DNA of 33,180 nucleotides from positions 1 to 33,180 of the forward strand of contig JAFVTV010000026.1 in NCBI GenBank assembly GCA_017502975.1, in the 5' to 3' direction. The notes below the pieces were generated by a model that worked only from the letters and a program-made list of their open reading frames with translations, searched no databases and had not been told where the DNA came from. A program made the position numbers and the translations under genes. Below, one piece after another: positions 9,548-27,968 of this stretch (the stretch's first letter is position 1; each line of letters opens with the position of its first letter). Origin of the DNA: Clostridia bacterium. GTDB taxonomy: Bacteria; Bacillota; Clostridia; Oscillospirales; CAG-272.

Positions 9548-11194
9548 TTAACCTAACGAGTCGGTAATATCCGTTGTCACGCAGTGATCAAAGCAGCCAA
9601 AGATCTCCTCGGTTTCCTTGGGTACCCAACGCTGTGTAAACGCGCTGACAAGGGGCACAAGCACAAGTCCGCCAAGCATGGCGAACACACCCGAGTAGAG
9701 CGAGTTTTTAAAGAGGAACCCAAAGAAGCCGCCGTTTACGGTAAAGACCTTCATGCTAATGAGGAGCTGTACGATCTCAAGTCCCGTGCCAAACAAGAAA
9801 CAGGTGGCAACGGCGGGCTTGGAGATCTTTTTGCTGTAAAGACCGTACAGGAAGGGGGCAAGGAATGCACCCGCCAGCGCACCCCAGGAAACACCCATCA
9901 TCTGCGCAATGAATACCGAATCTGCCCAAATCGTATCCTTGAGAATGGCGATGACGGCAGAAAGCGCAACAAAGAATACGATCAAAAGGCGCATAAAGAG
10001 CACCGATTTTTCCTCATCAATTCTTTTTTTGCTCTTTTTGCTTGCAAGGGGAAGGATGACGTCAAGCGCAAGCGTAGACGAGGAGGTAAGCGCGAGGGAC
10101 GAGAGGGTCGACATCGATGCCGAGAGCACCAGCACGATCACGAGTGCAATGATGATGGCGGGGAGCGATGCAAGCATAGTGGGTACGATACGGTCGTTCA
10201 AGACTGTGCCGCCAATGATGCCGTCCTTGTAAATGGCAGGATTGGTGGTGTAAAGTCTGCCAAAGCCGCCAAGGAAGTAGCAGCCGCCCGCAACCACGAT
10301 TGCGAACAGGGTGGAAATGATGGTGCCTTTTTTAATGGCATCCTCATTTTTAATGGAGTAGAACTTACCCACCATTTGCGGCAAGCCCCAGGTGCCAAGC
10401 GAGGTGAGAAGCACCACGATCAGCAGGTAGAAGGGCTGCGTGCCAAAGAAGGAAGTAAAGGCGCCTGCCTGCCCTGCGGTTTCGGGATAGGGGGAGGGGA
10501 TCTGCGAGAGCTTGAAGATCGCCTCGCCGGCGCCGCCGTTTGCGTTTAGCACGGCAACGATCACAACTACGATGCCCACAAGCATGATAATGCCCTGAAT
10601 AAAGTCATTGATCGCGGTTGCCATGTAGCCGCCAAAGATCACATACACACCCGTCAGAGCCGCCATTATGATCACCACCGCGGCGTAAGGAACATCAAAG
10701 GCAGAGTTGAAAAGCCCCGAAAGCCCGTTGTAGAGCGATGCGGTGTAGGGGATCAGAAATACGAAAACGATGACAGAAGCCGCGATTTTTAACTTGGGAG
10801 ATCTGTAGCGCTTTTCAAAAAAATCGGGCATGGTGCGCGAGCCGAGCGCTTGCGTCATAATGCGGGTGCGCCTGCCAAGCACCACCCACGCGAGCAGCGA
10901 CCCGATAAAGGCGTTGCCAAGACCGATCCAGGTGGAGGCAAGGCCGAAGTTCCAACCAAATTGCCCTGCATACCCGACAAAGATCACAGCAGAGAAGTAG
11001 GAAGTGCCAAAGGCGAAGGCAGTAAGCCACGGGCCTACGTTACGACCGCCAAGCACAAACCCTGTTACGTTGGTTGCGTGACGGCGGCAATAGAAGCCCA
11101 CAAAAAGCATCAGTCCGAAAAAGATCAGAATAAACGGTAGTGTTACCAGCACATTTGTGGTGGTGGAGGAGAGTGGGGTTGCTGCGAGTGCCAT
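9548..11194 (-). CDS. Sodium:solute symporter (SSS family), putative amino-acid uptake
   Basis: The 548-residue protein is hydrophobic throughout with about 13 membrane helices. It opens with a helix, then FVLGGRNVGPWLTAFAFGTSYFSAVIFVGYAG, the typical N-terminal block of SSS proteins such as PutP, and has SMSTLSSLALTSSSTLALD, which matches the family sodium-site region (Ser/Thr-rich helix 8). SSS proteins import sugars, amino acids or vitamins together with sodium. The T-box leader with an apparent Tyr specifier suggests that tyrosine or a precursor is the substrate, but the sequence alone does not prove this. Ribosome site AGAAAGGA precedes the ATG. Confidence 0.9.
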   Translation of the reverse strand: MALAATPLSSTTTNVLVTLPFILIFFGLMLFVGFYCRRHATNVTGFVLGGRNVGPWLTAFAFGTSYFSAVIFVGYAGQFGWNFGLASTWIGLGNAFIGSLLAWVVLGRRTRIMTQALGSRTMPDFFEKRYRSPKLKIAASVIVFVFLIPYTASLYNGLSGLFNSAFDVPYAAVVIIMAALTGVYVIFGGYMATAINDFIQGIIMLVGIVVVIVAVLNANGGAGEAIFKLSQIPSPYPETAGQAGAFTSFFGTQPFYLLIVVLLTSLGTWGLPQMVGKFYSIKNEDAIKKGTIISTLFAIVVAGGCYFLGGFGRLYTTNPAIYKDGIIGGTVLNDRIVPTMLASLPAIIIALVIVLVLSASMSTLSSLALTSSSTLALDVILPLASKKSKKRIDEEKSVLFMRLLIVFFVALSAVIAILKDTIWADSVFIAQMMGVSWGALAGAFLAPFLYGLYSKKISKPAVATCFLFGTGLEIVQLLISMKVFTVNGGFFGFLFKNSLYSGVFAMLGGLVLVPLVSAFTQRWVPKETEEIFGCFDHCVTTDITDSLG

Positions 11195-11522: not shown

Positions 11523-11528
11523 GCTGAC

Positions 11529-11557
11529 AGTTTAGCACATGCTGTTTCGTTTGTCAA
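11529..11557 (-). promoter_or_regulatory. Promoter of the T-box/symporter transcript
   Basis: Leftward TTGACA (11557-11552) and TAAACT (11534-11529), spacer 17 bp. Start of transcription is expected near 11522. Confidence 0.75.
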
Positions 11558-11612
11558 GCACTTTTTGAAAAATTATTCAAAGGAGCAGGCTGTGAGCGTG
11601 CCGCTTGATGAA

Positions 11613-11782
11613 GGTGGGTGATGGGATGTCGACTCTCCTCGCACTGCGTGCGAGTATGGAAGAACTCCTTGGCGCCTGAACGGCACCACTGCACGGCGGA
11701 TCGGTGTTCTTCCCCAAGCGCATATGAAAACATAAAACTTTTTAGGTTGGTACGCGCTTGGGGGCTCGCGCCCAAATCACCC
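11613..11782. repeat. Palindromic repeat element A with tRNA-end-like terminus
   Basis: The left end (GGTGGGTGATGGGATGTCGA, 11613-11632) resembles the antisense tRNA 3' end at 11997. The right end reads leftward GGGTGATTTGGGCGCGAG, an imperfect inverted copy. Inside are several hairpins: CTCGCAC/GTGCGAG, GGAAGAAC/GTTCTTCC and CCCCAAGCGC/GCGCTTGGGG. No protein gene is credible here; the overlapping frames contain no recognisable domain. Confidence 0.55.
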
Positions 11783-11785
11783 ACG

Positions 11786-11829
11786 CCATATGCAAAAAAG
11801 GCACCCGATTGGGTGCCTTTTGCATATGG
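11786..11829. repeat. Long perfect palindrome / terminator-like hairpin
   Basis: CCATATGCAAAA, two extra A, GGCACCC, loop GATT, then GGGTGCC and TTTTGCATATGG: 19 paired bases in one hairpin. Its right end overlaps the CCA-bearing copy of the tRNA 3' end at 11827. It may act as a terminator in either direction. Confidence 0.7.
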
Positions 11830-11954
11830 GGTGGGTGATGGGAAGTCGATTTATTTCGCACTCGCGCGCTCGCGCGAAATGGAAAGTTTCGTATAATATA
11901 ATTTAAATTTTAAGTAACTATGGAAACTTTCAGGGTTCGGCTCCGACATCACCC
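11827..11954. repeat. Palindromic repeat element B bounded by inverted tRNA-3'-end sequences
   Basis: The left 17 bp (11827-11843) are identical to the last 17 nt of the tRNA at 11997-12013, including C73 and CCA. The right end (GGGTTCGGCTCC then CATCACCC, to 11954) is an inverted T-arm/acceptor-like copy. Between them are ATTTCGC/GCGAAAT and GAAAGTTTC/GAAACTTTC inverted pairs around an AT-rich core. It looks related to element A: after GTCGA both run through TCGCACT and a GCG-rich hairpin to ATGGAA. Confidence 0.6.
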
Positions 11955-11962
11955 AAAAACGC

Positions 11963-11990
11963 AAAAAGCACCCCGTGAGGGGGTGCTTTT
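11963..11990 (-). terminator. Terminator of the tRNA cluster
   Basis: Leftward, AAAAGCACCCC pairs with GGGGTGCTTTT around a short loop, just after the last tRNA of the leftward cluster. Confidence 0.8.
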
Positions 11991-11996
11991 CGTGCT

Positions 11997-12073
11997 TGGG
12001 GTGGGTGATGGGAGTCGAACCCACGACCTCCAGGGCTACAACCTGGCGCTCTAACCAACTGAGCTACACTCAC
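11997..12073 (-). tRNA. tRNA with His-type body but GUA (Tyr) anticodon
   Basis: The cloverleaf closes well: D-stem GCTC, anticodon stem CCAGG/CCTGG, 5-nt variable loop, T-arm GTGGG-TTCGACT-CCCAT, encoded CCA. C73 and a G just before position 1 (12074) are the tRNA-His identity pair. The anticodon loop is TTGTAGC, so positions 34-36 are GUA, not GUG. Bacterial tRNA-Tyr has a long variable arm, which is absent here. The acceptor stem has an A4-C69 mismatch. It may be a mutated tRNA-His, a recoding tRNA or a decaying copy. First of three leftward tRNA genes in plus-strand order, last in transcription order. Confidence 0.8.
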
Positions 12074-12090
12074 CATATTTGATTTTGCAG

Positions 12091-12167
12091 TGGCGCGCCT
12101 TGAGGGACTCGAACCCCCGACCTACTGCTTAGAAGGCAGTTGCTCTATCCAGCTGAGCTAAAGGCGC
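12091..12167 (-). tRNA. tRNA-Arg(UCU)
   Basis: Acceptor stem GCGCCTT/AAGGCGC pairs fully, with G73 and encoded CCA. Anticodon stem ACTGC/GCAGT holds loop CTTCTAA, giving anticodon UCU for AGA/AGG codons. T-arm has GGGGGTTCGAGTCCC. Seventeen bases separate it from the GUA tRNA. Confidence 0.95.
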
Positions 12168-12172
12168 GTACT

Positions 12173-12248
<76 letters not shown>

Positions 12249-21906: not shown

Positions 21907-23589
21907 TTATTCTGCTACGAAGATAAAGGGATAAACATCTTGATCGCCGTCGATAAAGTAGGCTTCGATATCGGCATATGCATCTGCAAGATACGCCTCA
22001 AGATCTGCCTTTGCCTCGGCGGTGCACTCCTTGCCGCAGAATACCGTGAGCATAAACTTCTCGCCATTCTCCAGCATCTTGTCGATTAGCACGTGCGCGG
22101 TATCGGTCATCTTCTCGTTTGAGGTCAGCATTTGCTTGCCTACAAAGCCGATAAAATCGCCGTTTTTGATCTGTACGCCATTGAGTTCCGCATCGCGAAT
22201 AGAGGGGGAAACGTTGCCTGTAACAACGTTTGCCATGGCTTCCTTAAAGGCCTCGGCAATCGCTTCGGCATCATCGTTTTCAAAATCTGCGGCGCAGATC
22301 GCGACATATCCGTCACCTAAATTTTTGCTTTCGATGACGTGGATCTTGGCCTCGGTATAGATTTCAGCCGCCTGCTTTGCTGCCATTAAGATGTTGCCAT
22401 TGTTGGGGAACACGAAAATGTGCTCGGCATTTACCTTGGCAAAGGCATCTAAAAAGTCGTTGGTAGAGGGGTTTTGCGTTTGACCGCCCTCAACGATGGT
22501 ATCAACACCAAGCTCAAGGAAGGTTGCCGCAATGCCTGTGCCGCTGGCAACTGCTACCATGCCGTATTTCTTTTTCTCGGCAGGCACGTTGCTTGCCGCG
22601 GGCTTTTCTTCAACCGTGGTCTCACTGTGCTGAACCGACATATTTTCGATCTTTACCGTGAGAAATTCACCGAATTGACGGCAGAAGGCAAGCACTTTGT
22701 CGGGGGTGAGGGTGTGTACGTGGATCTTAACGATGGTGCCTGTTTTAAAGGACACTACCGAATCACCGATGCCGCAAAGGAACTCGGTGATGATGTCGTT
22801 ATCAAAGTTTTCAGCATCGACCTTGCTGTTTTGCAGCTGTAAAAGAAGCTCGGTGCAGTAGCCGTAGGTCATTTCGCTATCGGCGGTAAAGCCTGTGAGG
22901 TCCACAAGCTGTTTCTTTTCGGTCAGGGCCATCGGCTCTGCCTTGATCTCCTCACCGTTGAGGATCTTGTTGAAGCCATCCATGATGTAAAGAAGTCCCG
23001 CGCCGCCGCTGTCTACCACGCCTGCCTCCTTTAAGGTGGCAAGCAGCTCGGGCGTGCGGTTCAGCGACGCATTCATTTCCTTAACAAGGTCGCCAAAAAA
23101 GCTGCGGATCGTGCTGTCGGGGGTGACGCGAGAAACCGCGTATTCCACCGATTCGCGCGCAACGGTAAGGATCGTGCCCTCCGTCGGGGTCATAACAGAG
23201 TTATACGCCTGCTTTACGCCAAGCGTGAGCGCGTGACCAATGGTGTTGGCGTCTGCCCGCTCGCAGCTGTCAAAGCCCTTTGCCATGCCTGCAAACAACT
23301 GCGAGAGAATGACGCCCGAGTTGCCGCGCGCGCCAAGCAGCATGCCGTGAGAAAGGCTCTTCATGACCTCTGCAAGGTCGTTGGATTTGACCTTTTCGAG
23401 TGCTGCAATGCCGCTTTCAATCGTCATGCGCATATTGTCGCCCGTGTCACCGTCGGGAACGGGGAAAACGTTTAATTTGTTTACCTCCTCCGCATTGGAG
23501 CGAAGAAGCGCCGCGCCGCCCTGCGCCATTTGCGCAAGCAACGCACCGTCAAGAAACTGACCGTTGTTTTTTTCGGTATTGTTATCCAT
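21907..23589 (-). CDS. fakA: Fatty acid kinase catalytic subunit FakA, copy 1 (DAK2 domain)
   Basis: I use the ATG at 23589 with GAGGTG upstream; the longer frame to 23646 overlaps the preceding gene. The 560-residue protein has an N-terminal DAK2 kinase domain with the magnesium-ATP motif VPDGDTGDNM (D46, D48, D51), LGARGNSGVILSQ and the PTEGTILTVARE block, ending DSGGAGLLY, then a middle domain with the HVHT motif and a C-terminal DegV-facing domain. FakA phosphorylates fatty acids held by FakB to give acyl phosphate for phospholipid synthesis. It is not a dihydroxyacetone kinase, as no DhaK domain is present. It follows its fakB by 25 bp. Confidence 0.92.
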   Translation of the reverse strand: MDNNTEKNNGQFLDGALLAQMAQGGAALLRSNAEEVNKLNVFPVPDGDTGDNMRMTIESGIAALEKVKSNDLAEVMKSLSHGMLLGARGNSGVILSQLFAGMAKGFDSCERADANTIGHALTLGVKQAYNSVMTPTEGTILTVARESVEYAVSRVTPDSTIRSFFGDLVKEMNASLNRTPELLATLKEAGVVDSGGAGLLYIMDGFNKILNGEEIKAEPMALTEKKQLVDLTGFTADSEMTYGYCTELLLQLQNSKVDAENFDNDIITEFLCGIGDSVVSFKTGTIVKIHVHTLTPDKVLAFCRQFGEFLTVKIENMSVQHSETTVEEKPAASNVPAEKKKYGMVAVASGTGIAATFLELGVDTIVEGGQTQNPSTNDFLDAFAKVNAEHIFVFPNNGNILMAAKQAAEIYTEAKIHVIESKNLGDGYVAICAADFENDDAEAIAEAFKEAMANVVTGNVSPSIRDAELNGVQIKNGDFIGFVGKQMLTSNEKMTDTAHVLIDKMLENGEKFMLTVFCGKECTAEAKADLEAYLADAYADIEAYFIDGDQDVYPFIFVAE

Positions 23590-23614
23590 GATGCACCTCG
23601 TATTTAAATGTTGA

Positions 23615-24487
23615 TCAGCGCTCGCTTCCGACAAAGAAGAGCGCAAGCGTGCCGGGACCGGAATGTGCGCCGATCACAGGGCCTACATCGGTAATCAGCT
23701 CGACCTCAACGCCGTTTTGCTCATAGAGAAGCTTGGCAAGGAATTTGGCATCGTCCTCACAGTCGCCGTGTGAAATGAACACATGACCGCCTGCGGGATC
23801 CTTTGCGGTTTCCTTATATTTTGCTGCCATTGCGGCAATTGATTTTTTACGGCCGTGTGCCGTGGTGACCTTGGTGAGCTTGCCTGCGTCATCCACGTGC
23901 ATCACGGGCTTGATGTGCAGGGCGTTGCCGATGATCGCGGTGGTGGGGCTGACTCTGCCACCGCGCTTTAGGTACGTGAGATTGTCTACCGTAAACCAAT
24001 GGCAAAGATCGGGGCGGATCGCTTCTACATACTGCGCGACCTCCTCAATGGTGGCGCCCTCGTTTCTTTTTAGCGTGGCAAGGTAAACGAGCAGGCCTTC
24101 ACCGGCAGAAGCGCAAAGCGTGTCTACCGCAAAGATCTTACGTGCGGGGTGCTTCTCGCGCAGCTGCTCTGCAGCAAGTCTTGCGGCATTGTAGGTGTTG
24201 CTGATGCCCGACGAAAAGCCGAGGTAAAGCACATCCTTGTCAGCCGCAATGGCTTTCTCAAAGGCGGCGGAAAAGGTTTCGGTATTGATGGCGGCGGTTT
24301 TGGCAATGCCGCCGTCGCGCATTCTTTGGTAAAACTCCTTGGTGGGCATATCGCTGTTTCCGTATTCCCGGTCCGAATCGTTGAAGCGGAAGGTAAGCGA
24401 CTCACAGGCTACATCCCACTCGGCAAGAAGCGAGGGGGAGATATCACAGCCCGAGTCTGTAATGATTTGAAAAGGATAATTTTGCAT
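23615..24487 (-). CDS. DegV family fatty acid-binding protein (FakB type), copy 1
   Basis: The 290-residue protein has the DegV fold: IITDSGCDIS at the start, FSSGISNTYNAAR (the SGxSxTYN loop, around 91-103), WFTVDNLTYLKRGGRVS and the C-terminal IGAHSGPGT with H275. In FakB proteins this His and the Ser/Thr residues hold the fatty-acid carboxyl group for phosphorylation. The usual TSQPS loop is replaced by TAAIN (about 64-68). AGGAGG precedes the ATG. It heads a two-gene operon with fakA copy 1. Confidence 0.92.
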   Translation of the reverse strand: MQNYPFQIITDSGCDISPSLLAEWDVACESLTFRFNDSDREYGNSDMPTKEFYQRMRDGGIAKTAAINTETFSAAFEKAIAADKDVLYLGFSSGISNTYNAARLAAEQLREKHPARKIFAVDTLCASAGEGLLVYLATLKRNEGATIEEVAQYVEAIRPDLCHWFTVDNLTYLKRGGRVSPTTAIIGNALHIKPVMHVDDAGKLTKVTTAHGRKKSIAAMAAKYKETAKDPAGGHVFISHGDCEDDAKFLAKLLYEQNGVEVELITDVGPVIGAHSGPGTLALFFVGSER

Positions 24488-25400: not shown

Positions 25401-27065
25401 TTATTCAATCACGAAAATGAAGTTGTAGATATCCTGCTCGCCGTTGATCTCGAAAAGCTCAACGCCGGGGTAGGTGCTTTTCACAAAGGCACGTACGGCA
25501 TCCATATCTGAGGCCGTGGTATCCTTACCGCAGATGGCAATGATCACCTCTTTGTCGGTCATGTCGATCGCGCCAAGCAGATCGCATGCGGCGGCAGATG
25601 CGGTTTTGGCGTCGGCAAGCATCTCCTTGCCCGCAAAGCCGATATAGTCGTTTTTGGAAATGTCAAGACCGCCAAGGTGTGAATCACGCACCGATCTTGT
25701 GACCATGCCCGTAATCACGCCCGACATGGCATCGGTGAGTGCTTGCTCGATCGCATCGGCATCACCGCTTTCAAAATCAAGCATGGTAAGCGCCGCATAG
25801 CCGTCGCCCACGGTCTTGCTGTTTAGCACGCGCACGTCGGCATTTTGATAAAGCCCTGCTGCCTGCCGTGCAGTTAAAACGATATTGCTGTTGTTGGGAA
25901 GCACAAATACAGTATCGGCATTGACCGCCTCAAACGCGGCAAGAAAATCCTCAGAGGAGGGATTCATGGTCTGCCCGCCCTCCACAATGACATCCGCGCC
26001 AAGAGAGAGGAAGGTTTCTTTGATACCCTCGCCTGCGGCAACCGCCACTACGCCAAAGGCCTTATGCGCCTGCTTTTGAGGCTTTTTTTCCTCAAAACGG
26101 TTTTCCACGGTTGCCTCGCTGTGCTGAAGTGCCATGTTTTCTACCTTTAGCGTTAAAAACTCACCGTATTTTTGACAGTGCGCAAGCACATTGCCGGGGG
26201 TCATGGTGTGTACATGCACCTTGATGACTGTGCCTGTTTTAAAGCAAACGATCGATTCGCCCCCCATAGCGGCAAGCTCGTTTGCAATCGTTTGCGCGGG
26301 GAATTGGTCGGCGTTGACCTTGCTGTTTTGCAGCTGCAACAAAAACTCGGTGCAGTAGCCAAAGCTCATTTTACTGTCGGCGGTAAAGGCGCTAAAATCG
26401 GGCGTTGCGGTTTTTGCGGCAGGTGCCTCGGGGGTGGCGGCCACCGCTTCGCCGTGCAGGATCTTGCTCATGCCCTCGATCACATATACAAGCCCCGCGC
26501 CGCCGCTGTCAATGACACCGGATTCCTTCAGAATCGGCAAAAGGTCGGGGGTGCGCTTCAGGGAAGCGCGCATTTCCCGAATGAAGTCGGAGAAGAAATC
26601 CTCCAGCGTGGTTTGGGTGGTAATGCGCGCAACGGCATAATCGGTTGCCTCTCGCGCAACGGTTAAAATCGTGCCCTCCGTGGGGGTCATGACGGCATCG
26701 TACGCTTGCTTTACACCTGCTTTAAAGGCTTTGCCAAGCGCCGCGGCATCGGCGCGCTCTATACCCGAAAGACCCTTTGCAATGCCTGCAAAGAGTTGTG
26801 AGAGGATCACGCCCGAGTTGCCGCGCGCGCCAAGCAGCATGCCGCCCGCCAGCTTTTCGGCAATGTAGGAGATCGAATCCGATGCGATGTCACGCAGCAC
26901 CGCGTCGCCCCCCTCCATTGTCAGGGACATATTATCGCCCGTGTCACCGTCGGGAATGGGAAATACGTTCAGGTCATTGACCACCTTTGCGTTGGCGCGC
27001 AGATTGCCCGCGCCGCCGCGAACCATATCGGCGAACAGTGCGCCGCTCAGTTCATAAGTTGCCAT
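25401..27065 (-). CDS. Fatty acid kinase catalytic subunit FakA, copy 2 (DAK2 domain)
   Basis: The 554-residue protein aligns by eye with copy 1 over its whole length: IPDGDTGDNM (D39, D41, D44), LGARGNSGVILSQLFAGIAKG, PTEGTILTVARE, DSGGAGLVY, VHVHTMTPG and GGQTMNPSSEDF. The kinase motif is intact, so it should be active. A second FakA next to the first is unusual: most genomes have one FakA and several FakB. It is the last gene of the plsC-DUF308-fakB2-fakA2 operon, 18 bp after its fakB. Confidence 0.9.
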   Translation of the reverse strand: MATYELSGALFADMVRGGAGNLRANAKVVNDLNVFPIPDGDTGDNMSLTMEGGDAVLRDIASDSISYIAEKLAGGMLLGARGNSGVILSQLFAGIAKGLSGIERADAAALGKAFKAGVKQAYDAVMTPTEGTILTVAREATDYAVARITTQTTLEDFFSDFIREMRASLKRTPDLLPILKESGVIDSGGAGLVYVIEGMSKILHGEAVAATPEAPAAKTATPDFSAFTADSKMSFGYCTEFLLQLQNSKVNADQFPAQTIANELAAMGGESIVCFKTGTVIKVHVHTMTPGNVLAHCQKYGEFLTLKVENMALQHSEATVENRFEEKKPQKQAHKAFGVVAVAAGEGIKETFLSLGADVIVEGGQTMNPSSEDFLAAFEAVNADTVFVLPNNSNIVLTARQAAGLYQNADVRVLNSKTVGDGYAALTMLDFESGDADAIEQALTDAMSGVITGMVTRSVRDSHLGGLDISKNDYIGFAGKEMLADAKTASAAACDLLGAIDMTDKEVIIAICGKDTTASDMDAVRAFVKSTYPGVELFEINGEQDIYNFIFVIE

Positions 27066-27083
27066 TATGTTCTCCTTGAAAAA

Positions 27084-27968
27084 TCAGATCGTAAGCTCCA
27101 CCTTTTTGCCAAAGCACCAAGCACCGATGGCATCGGGGCCAATGCAAACGCCAACAATGGGGCCGATAAAGTATATGTAAGCATCTTTAAATCCAACTTT
27201 TTCGATCAGCTCACGGCGCAGATATTTCGCATCCTCGGCACAGTCGGCATGCGCGATATATACCGTTTGTGATGCGGGATCGATCACGGATTCCCCGATG
27301 AGGGAAACCAATTTATCAAGCGAGGTCTTGCGCCCCTTTACCTTGACGATCGGTACGTTTTGACCGTTATAATCGGAAATGATGATGGGCTTTACACCGA
27401 GAAGATTGCCAAAGAATGCGGCAGAGCCCTTGACACGTCCTGCTTTTTTCAGCATATCAAGCGAGCCAACCGTTACAAACTGATTGACGCAGTGCTTTTT
27501 CTCCTCTACGGCACAAACGATCTCATCCACGCTCTTGCCCTCATCGCGCAGCGTTGCCGCATATACGGCAAGCATGCCCTCGCCCATGGAGCAGTTGGTG
27601 GCATCGATACAGCGTACGGTTGCATCGGGATATTTTTCGAGAAGCTGCTTTGCAACCATACTGCCTGTGTTCACGGAGCTTGACAGGGGAAGGGCACAGC
27701 CGATGTAGATTACGGCATAGCCTGCCTCAATTGCCTCGGTAAAGCCGCGCTCAAATTCGCTCATCGGTACCTGGGTGGTGAGAATACGCTTGCCCGTTTC
27801 CCGAATTTTTTGATATAGCCCTTTGATATATGCCACGTCGTTGAGATCGGCAGGGGTTTCCTTGCCGTCCTCAACCGTACACATTTTTAAAAATTCAATG
27901 TCGTATTTCCGGCGAATGTCAGCACCGAGATCGGCGCAGGAATCGGTTATGATTTTGATTTTTTGCAT
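27084..27968 (-). CDS. DegV family protein (divergent FakB), copy 2
   Basis: The 294-residue protein has the DegV start IITDSCADLG and the ligand loop TTQVP (64-68), closer to the family TSQPS than copy 1. Two other sites differ: the SGxSGTYN loop reads LPLSSSVN (93-100), and the C-terminal IGxHxGPG motif reads VGVCIGPD, putting Cys at position 275 where copy 1 has His. In characterised FakB proteins that His helps to hold the fatty-acid head group. The protein may bind another lipid or work less well. Ribosome site AAGGAG precedes the ATG. It is Cys-rich compared with copy 1. Confidence 0.88.
   Translation of the reverse strand: MQKIKIITDSCADLGADIRRKYDIEFLKMCTVEDGKETPADLNDVAYIKGLYQKIRETGKRILTTQVPMSEFERGFTEAIEAGYAVIYIGCALPLSSSVNTGSMVAKQLLEKYPDATVRCIDATNCSMGEGMLAVYAATLRDEGKSVDEIVCAVEEKKHCVNQFVTVGSLDMLKKAGRVKGSAAFFGNLLGVKPIIISDYNGQNVPIVKVKGRKTSLDKLVSLIGESVIDPASQTVYIAHADCAEDAKYLRRELIEKVGFKDAYIYFIGPIVGVCIGPDAIGAWCFGKKVELTI

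Follow-up and report, generated by a model that had tools for sequence, protein, structure and literature searches.

The question raised by this locus is what to make of a tRNA gene whose body is that of a tRNA-His and whose anticodon, GUA, is that of a tRNA-Tyr. Such a gene could be a tRNA of altered identity, a gene in decay, or an ordinary tRNA-His in which a single base was mutated or wrongly called. The gene lies in a 33,180-nucleotide stretch of DNA from a draft metagenome assembly of a Clostridia bacterium (hereafter, the whole stretch is called the window). Comparison with its relatives, its neighbours and the rest of its genome indicates that the altered base probably reflects a mistake in the assembly or a mutation private to this genome, and not a new kind of tRNA.

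A tRNA-His body with a GUA anticodon

The gene occupies positions 11997..12074 on the minus strand, counted from G-1 to CCA. It was called by ARAGORN (11997-12073, minus strand, anticodon gta) and by the Rfam tRNA family RF00005, with 65.1 bits against a gathering score of 29, and is therefore not a chance match. Read in the tRNA sense, the acceptor stem GTGAGTG/CACCCAC carries an A4:C69 mismatch and is preceded by G-1, the anticodon loop is TTGTAGC, giving GUA followed by G37, and the variable loop is the five-base AGGTC. The preliminary description of this DNA had reported a tRNA with C73, G-1, a short variable loop, CCA and this GUA-containing loop, and sequence, ARAGORN and Rfam bear it out in each of these features. 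The anticodon lies at 12037..12039 (minus strand, read from the sequence), with tRNA position 36 at 12037, where the plus strand of the window has T; a C there would give GUG. In transcription order on the minus strand, the gene follows tRNA-Gly(UCC), the first gene of the cluster (12173..12246), and tRNA-Arg(UCU) (12091..12167), both called by ARAGORN and both identical in the closest relative.

The gene resembles bacterial tRNA-His(GUG) in its class I body, its G-1:C73 pair, its encoded CCA, its place in a Gly-Arg-His cluster and its 15 congeneric orthologs, and differs from it by one anticodon base, at position 36. With bacterial tRNA-Tyr(GUA) it shares the anticodon only. The long variable arm and A73 of a tRNA-Tyr are absent, whereas the normal tRNA-Tyr(GUA) of the same genome, on contig C54, is a class II tRNA of 85 bases with A73. 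We also considered a pseudogene with several changes that weaken the cloverleaf and rejected it: the score of the window gene falls within the 61.9-66.7 bits spanned by the 15 congeneric GUG orthologs, 11 of which score 64.7 bits.

Orthologs with a GUG anticodon

Our ortholog search covered 59 genomes, comprising 58 relatives and the genome of origin. An ortholog with 96-99% identity is present in 15 of the 20 congeneric genomes, and all 15 have G at position 36 and the anticodon GUG. The order Gly-Arg-His is found at 13 of these loci, the other two being Arg-His at contig ends, and the core tRNA-His pattern matches once in every genus genome that has the gene, 16 counting this one. By sequence and gene order alike, the window gene is an ortholog of these genes, and so the ordinary tRNA-His gene of this genus of gut bacteria. 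That it is a tRNA-His body with base 36 changed from G to A, as had been proposed, is borne out by the 15 GUG orthologs and by the shared cluster wherever the flank suffices. ARAGORN called tRNA-His(GUG) in all 29 related loci that were scanned, 15 within the genus and 14 beyond it.

The A4:C69 mismatch had earlier been read as a second G-to-A change, fitting either decay or adaptation. A4 is present in 15 of 15 congeneric orthologs, whereas G4 is found in 13 of 14 orthologs outside the genus, the fourteenth (L073) being out of register in the ungapped comparison behind this count. A mismatch shared by the whole genus speaks for neither decay nor adaptation here, and that part of the earlier reading falls away.

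No tRNA-His was detected by similarity or pattern in the remaining 5 of the 20 congeners, among them G003, which is given as 97% complete; there, an assembly gap at a repeat-flanked place is the probable cause. Six of the 15 congeneric orthologs have less than 220 bases of flank to one side, so the gene often lies near a contig end.

The closest relative found is the record locus L113, which contains locus L049 of the congener G020 and is 94.5% identical over 2.9 kb. Between the two, the three tRNA genes differ at 1 of 229 bases, namely position 36, while three neighbouring coding stretches diverge by 3.5-7.7% and the intergenic stretch by 8.5%. A pattern allowing G or A at position 36 matched 73 of 398 genomes of the phylum, 72 with G and one, the window, with A; with so many bases fixed, such a scan reaches only a minority of tRNA-His genes. 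The GUA form of this pattern, equally restrictive, was not found in the genome_contigs or IMG/VR collections, from which records of this genome or near ones may be absent. Scanning named genomes with a pattern gave 16 records, all GUG, of which 10 are titled as gut metagenome-assembled genomes of roe deer, goat, sheep or water deer; at least 13 of the 16 share exact sequence with loci already compared and are not independent of them. A natural bacterial tRNA-His(GUA) is described in none of the titles retrieved on the identity of tRNA-His and on anticodon changes or errors. In the set of genomes compared, the GUA change is private. The preliminary description had itself reasoned that a normal tRNA-His at this place in close relatives would make the change an error or a private mutation, and a normal tRNA-His(GUG) is what close relatives have.

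The tRNA set, HisRS and codon use of the genome

The genome of origin is a draft of 1.66 Mb in 56 contigs, 83.91% complete. Its 39 RF00005 matches, 38 of them typed by ARAGORN, include no tRNA-His(GUG); tRNAs for Asn, Ile(GAU) and Trp are absent from the same list, which implies that some tRNA genes are missing from the assembly. The one match of the 39 that ARAGORN did not accept is weak, at 30.4 bits, and lies on contig C17 (3793-3861, corresponding to 194-262 of locus L044); it is also present in G020 (contig C7, 130368-130436).

One gene for histidyl-tRNA synthetase (HisRS) scored above the cut-off. It is intact and encodes a protein with 97.9% identity to the G020 enzyme. Compared with six relatives, the protein has no His/Tyr exchange and one residue of its own, D412 (N in all six), near the end of its 435 residues; we gave this single residue no weight as a sign that the synthetase had changed together with the tRNA.

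For codon use, we compared up to 12 window proteins with those of congeners, column by column. Against the closest congener, 46 of 50 His columns and 69 of 71 Tyr columns are conserved, and the exchanges amount to two columns with Tyr in the window and His in the congener and one of the reverse. Pooled over all pairs, Tyr in the window faces His in a congener 38 times and His faces Tyr 8 times, but these pairs come from a handful of columns counted again and again across many related and duplicate loci. Counted once per column, His occurs in some congener at 7 of 114 Tyr columns and Tyr at 4 of 73 His columns; for this count loci were merged by a table of our own, in which 13 of 15 pairings are confirmed by shared sequence and those of L052 and L058 are not. 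On these up to 12 window proteins, we rejected as weak the idea that mistranslation is visible in the protein columns. His and Tyr codons look normally used in this genome, and any viable cell with CAU and CAC in its genes must, we infer, have a tRNA that reads both.

Elsewhere in the window, at 21907-24487 and 25401-27968, open reading frames form two similar neighbouring gene pairs, each encoding a larger protein (550-580 residues) and a smaller one (about 290 residues). The pairs look like a tandem duplication, and we presume their products to be DAK-like and DegV-like.

Explanations for the altered anticodon

The simplest account, and in our view a probable one, is that the A read at position 36 is a false consensus call of the draft metagenome assembly and that the living cell most likely carries GUG. 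Its source would be an error of sequencing or assembly, or else a read from a minor strain that entered the consensus. A sole tRNA-His reading GUA could not decode CAU and CAC, which appear normally used, and for this reason we infer that the base is wrong rather than mutated. Consensus errors are also plausible given the coverage of 2.1 to 6.3x in the 5 of 16 related records that state it, a figure for those records and not for this assembly. Against an error, the tRNA is otherwise intact, scores like its orthologs and has error-free tRNA neighbours, as it would with a real single mutation, and G-to-A is a common true mutation. The next most likely reading, to which we give clearly less credence, is a real, recent mutation private to one strain or species and tolerated through a second, intact but unassembled tRNA-His or through a mixed population; the gene would then be a chance suppressor-like allele or be heading for loss. 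A single transition in an otherwise intact gene suits this reading, and an assembly 84% complete, lacking tRNAs for Asn, Ile(GAU), Trp and His(GUG), could well be missing a second tRNA-His. However, with one copy by pattern in each of 15 congeners, a duplicate would itself be new, and a GUA tRNA with histidine identity would misread Tyr codons, which should be harmful. The consensus error ranks before the private mutation, with a functional tRNA that inserts histidine at tyrosine codons as a remote third.

This last reading, which we hold to be very improbable, has the gene expressed and charged by HisRS through G-1:C73, placing histidine at a fraction of Tyr codons while a normal tRNA-His, missing from the assembly, sustains the cell. 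G-1 and C73 are indeed kept. In a review, G-1, possibly as the G-1:C73 pair, is described as essential in Escherichia coli tRNA-His, with the anticodon also involved (PMC9976931), and another paper describes an E. coli tRNA-His with a CUA anticodon that, together with E. coli HisRS, places histidine at UAG in Caulobacter (PMC3875453). By analogy a tRNA-His(GUA), if it existed, might be charged with histidine; easy charging is opposed by work cited in the same review, according to which the anticodon-binding domain of HisRS matters in vivo (PMC9976931). Further against such a tRNA, the GUA form was seen in only one draft genome among those scanned, Tyr-to-His and His-to-Tyr columns stand at two and one against the closest congener, and the synthetase shows a single unique residue and no His/Tyr exchange. 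The remolding of alloacceptor tRNAs in animal mitochondria (PMC4783518) is alike in that an anticodon change would shift a gene to another codon family. It differs in that remolding starts from a duplicate and ends in a functional tRNA, whereas for the window gene we found neither a duplicate nor a sign of use. Mischarging, a regulatory role and wider decay, all raised in the preliminary description, found no support.

A nearby T-box leader

A T-box leader identified with Rfam lies at 11522-11272 on the minus strand, ahead of a gene for a sodium:solute symporter (9548-11194; Pfam SSF, E 1.5e-49). We take its specifier loop to read GAA-UAC-A and so to call for tyrosine (UAC). An apparent tyrosine T-box in front of the symporter gene suggests a tyrosine transporter.

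The closeness of this leader and the UAC in its specifier loop would suit a decoy, a tRNA whose GUA anticodon binds the tyrosine T-box of the symporter gene and alters its control. Two observations led us to reject this idea, which we regard as even less credible than a mistranslating tRNA. The T-box bulge, UGGU, presumably fits the A73 of a normal tRNA-Tyr and not C73, and the congener record L105 has the same T-box, with GAATACA and GGTGGTACC unchanged, beside a GUG tRNA-His. As the leader is kept beside a GUG gene, it did not arise with the anticodon change, and its proximity to the GUA anticodon looks like coincidence. Eight Rfam matches in the spacer at 11523-12000, with E values of up to 5 and all below the gathering scores, were taken as chance.

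Units that copy tRNA 3′ ends

Downstream of the tRNA-His terminator, the window contains two units on the minus strand, at about 11826-11955 and 11613-11787. In each, part of the tRNA-His 3′ end is repeated twice, as an inverted copy where the unit starts and as a direct copy where it stops. The fold predicted for the first unit is much stronger than that of shuffled sequence (z -5.8). In the predicted fold, the tRNA-His and the inverted copy that follows it form one long hairpin (z -7.0) that absorbs the T arm and the 3′ acceptor strand, compared with a z-score of -0.7 for the tRNA alone; the inverted copy can, on this model, pair with the T arm and acceptor strand of its own tRNA. In record L108 (5915-6751), five tandem units of 165 bases, 97% matching, lie directly 3′ of tRNA-His, each containing the tRNA-His tail and a terminator hairpin. 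In locus L056 (1367-1464, minus strand), just 3′ of the tRNA-His of G007, there is a match to the Gut-1 RNA (RF01706, 53.8 bits, gathering score 50), within a series of short palindromes at the place taken by tRNA-tail units in other congeners.

Such copies also follow tRNA genes other than tRNA-His. For every cluster-ending tRNA gene whose flank was long enough, we compared the downstream sequence with the end of its own tRNA and with the ends of the same genome's other tRNAs, counting a copy when an equal score was reached by no more than 5% of the other ends. In the genome of origin, a copy of the own end follows 18 of 21 such genes (13 inverted, 13 direct and 8 both, with about one expected per column of the count), and in G020, among the best 30 of 42 tRNA matches, 18 of 22 (14 inverted, 17 direct, 13 both). 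A genome of another genus in the same family, G028, gave 3 of 22, inverted only and with low scores, among the best 30 of 40 matches, and one of the same order, G043, gave 0 of 21 among the best 30 of 54. Fourteen pooled tRNAs from the loci of other genera yielded no inverted and three direct copies, where 0.7 were expected; among the three, the direct copy that follows tRNA-His in L067 clearly repeats the end of that tRNA. A stricter, ungapped test gave 11 of 37 in the genome of origin, 8 of 32 in G020 and 0 of 37 in G043, the latter two on sequence drawn from the same best 30 of 42 and of 54 matches.

At tRNA-Ala(GGC), a unit is present in G020 and absent from the genome of origin; the downstream sequences are otherwise unalignable, and no clean empty site was seen at this gene between the two genomes. 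In other pairs the units are common to both, as after tRNA-Val(GAC), at 98%. Judging from these sequences, the units could be small mobile elements tied to tRNA ends, inverted copies that arose by template switching at the terminator hairpin and have since been homogenized by gene conversion, or RNA units with a function in transcripts that read through tRNA genes. The few titles retrieved on elements beside tRNA genes include none on units that copy tRNA ends.

Implications

A single altered base in a draft metagenome assembly can mimic a change of tRNA identity, and it is the congeners that show it to be private. If the GUA anticodon were real and used, this gene would be a natural case of histidine at tyrosine codons. 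The units beside it look more interesting and may matter more than the anticodon: the presence of tRNA-end copies after most of the cluster-ending genes examined in two genomes of the genus points to some element or process that is linked to the 3′ ends of tRNAs.
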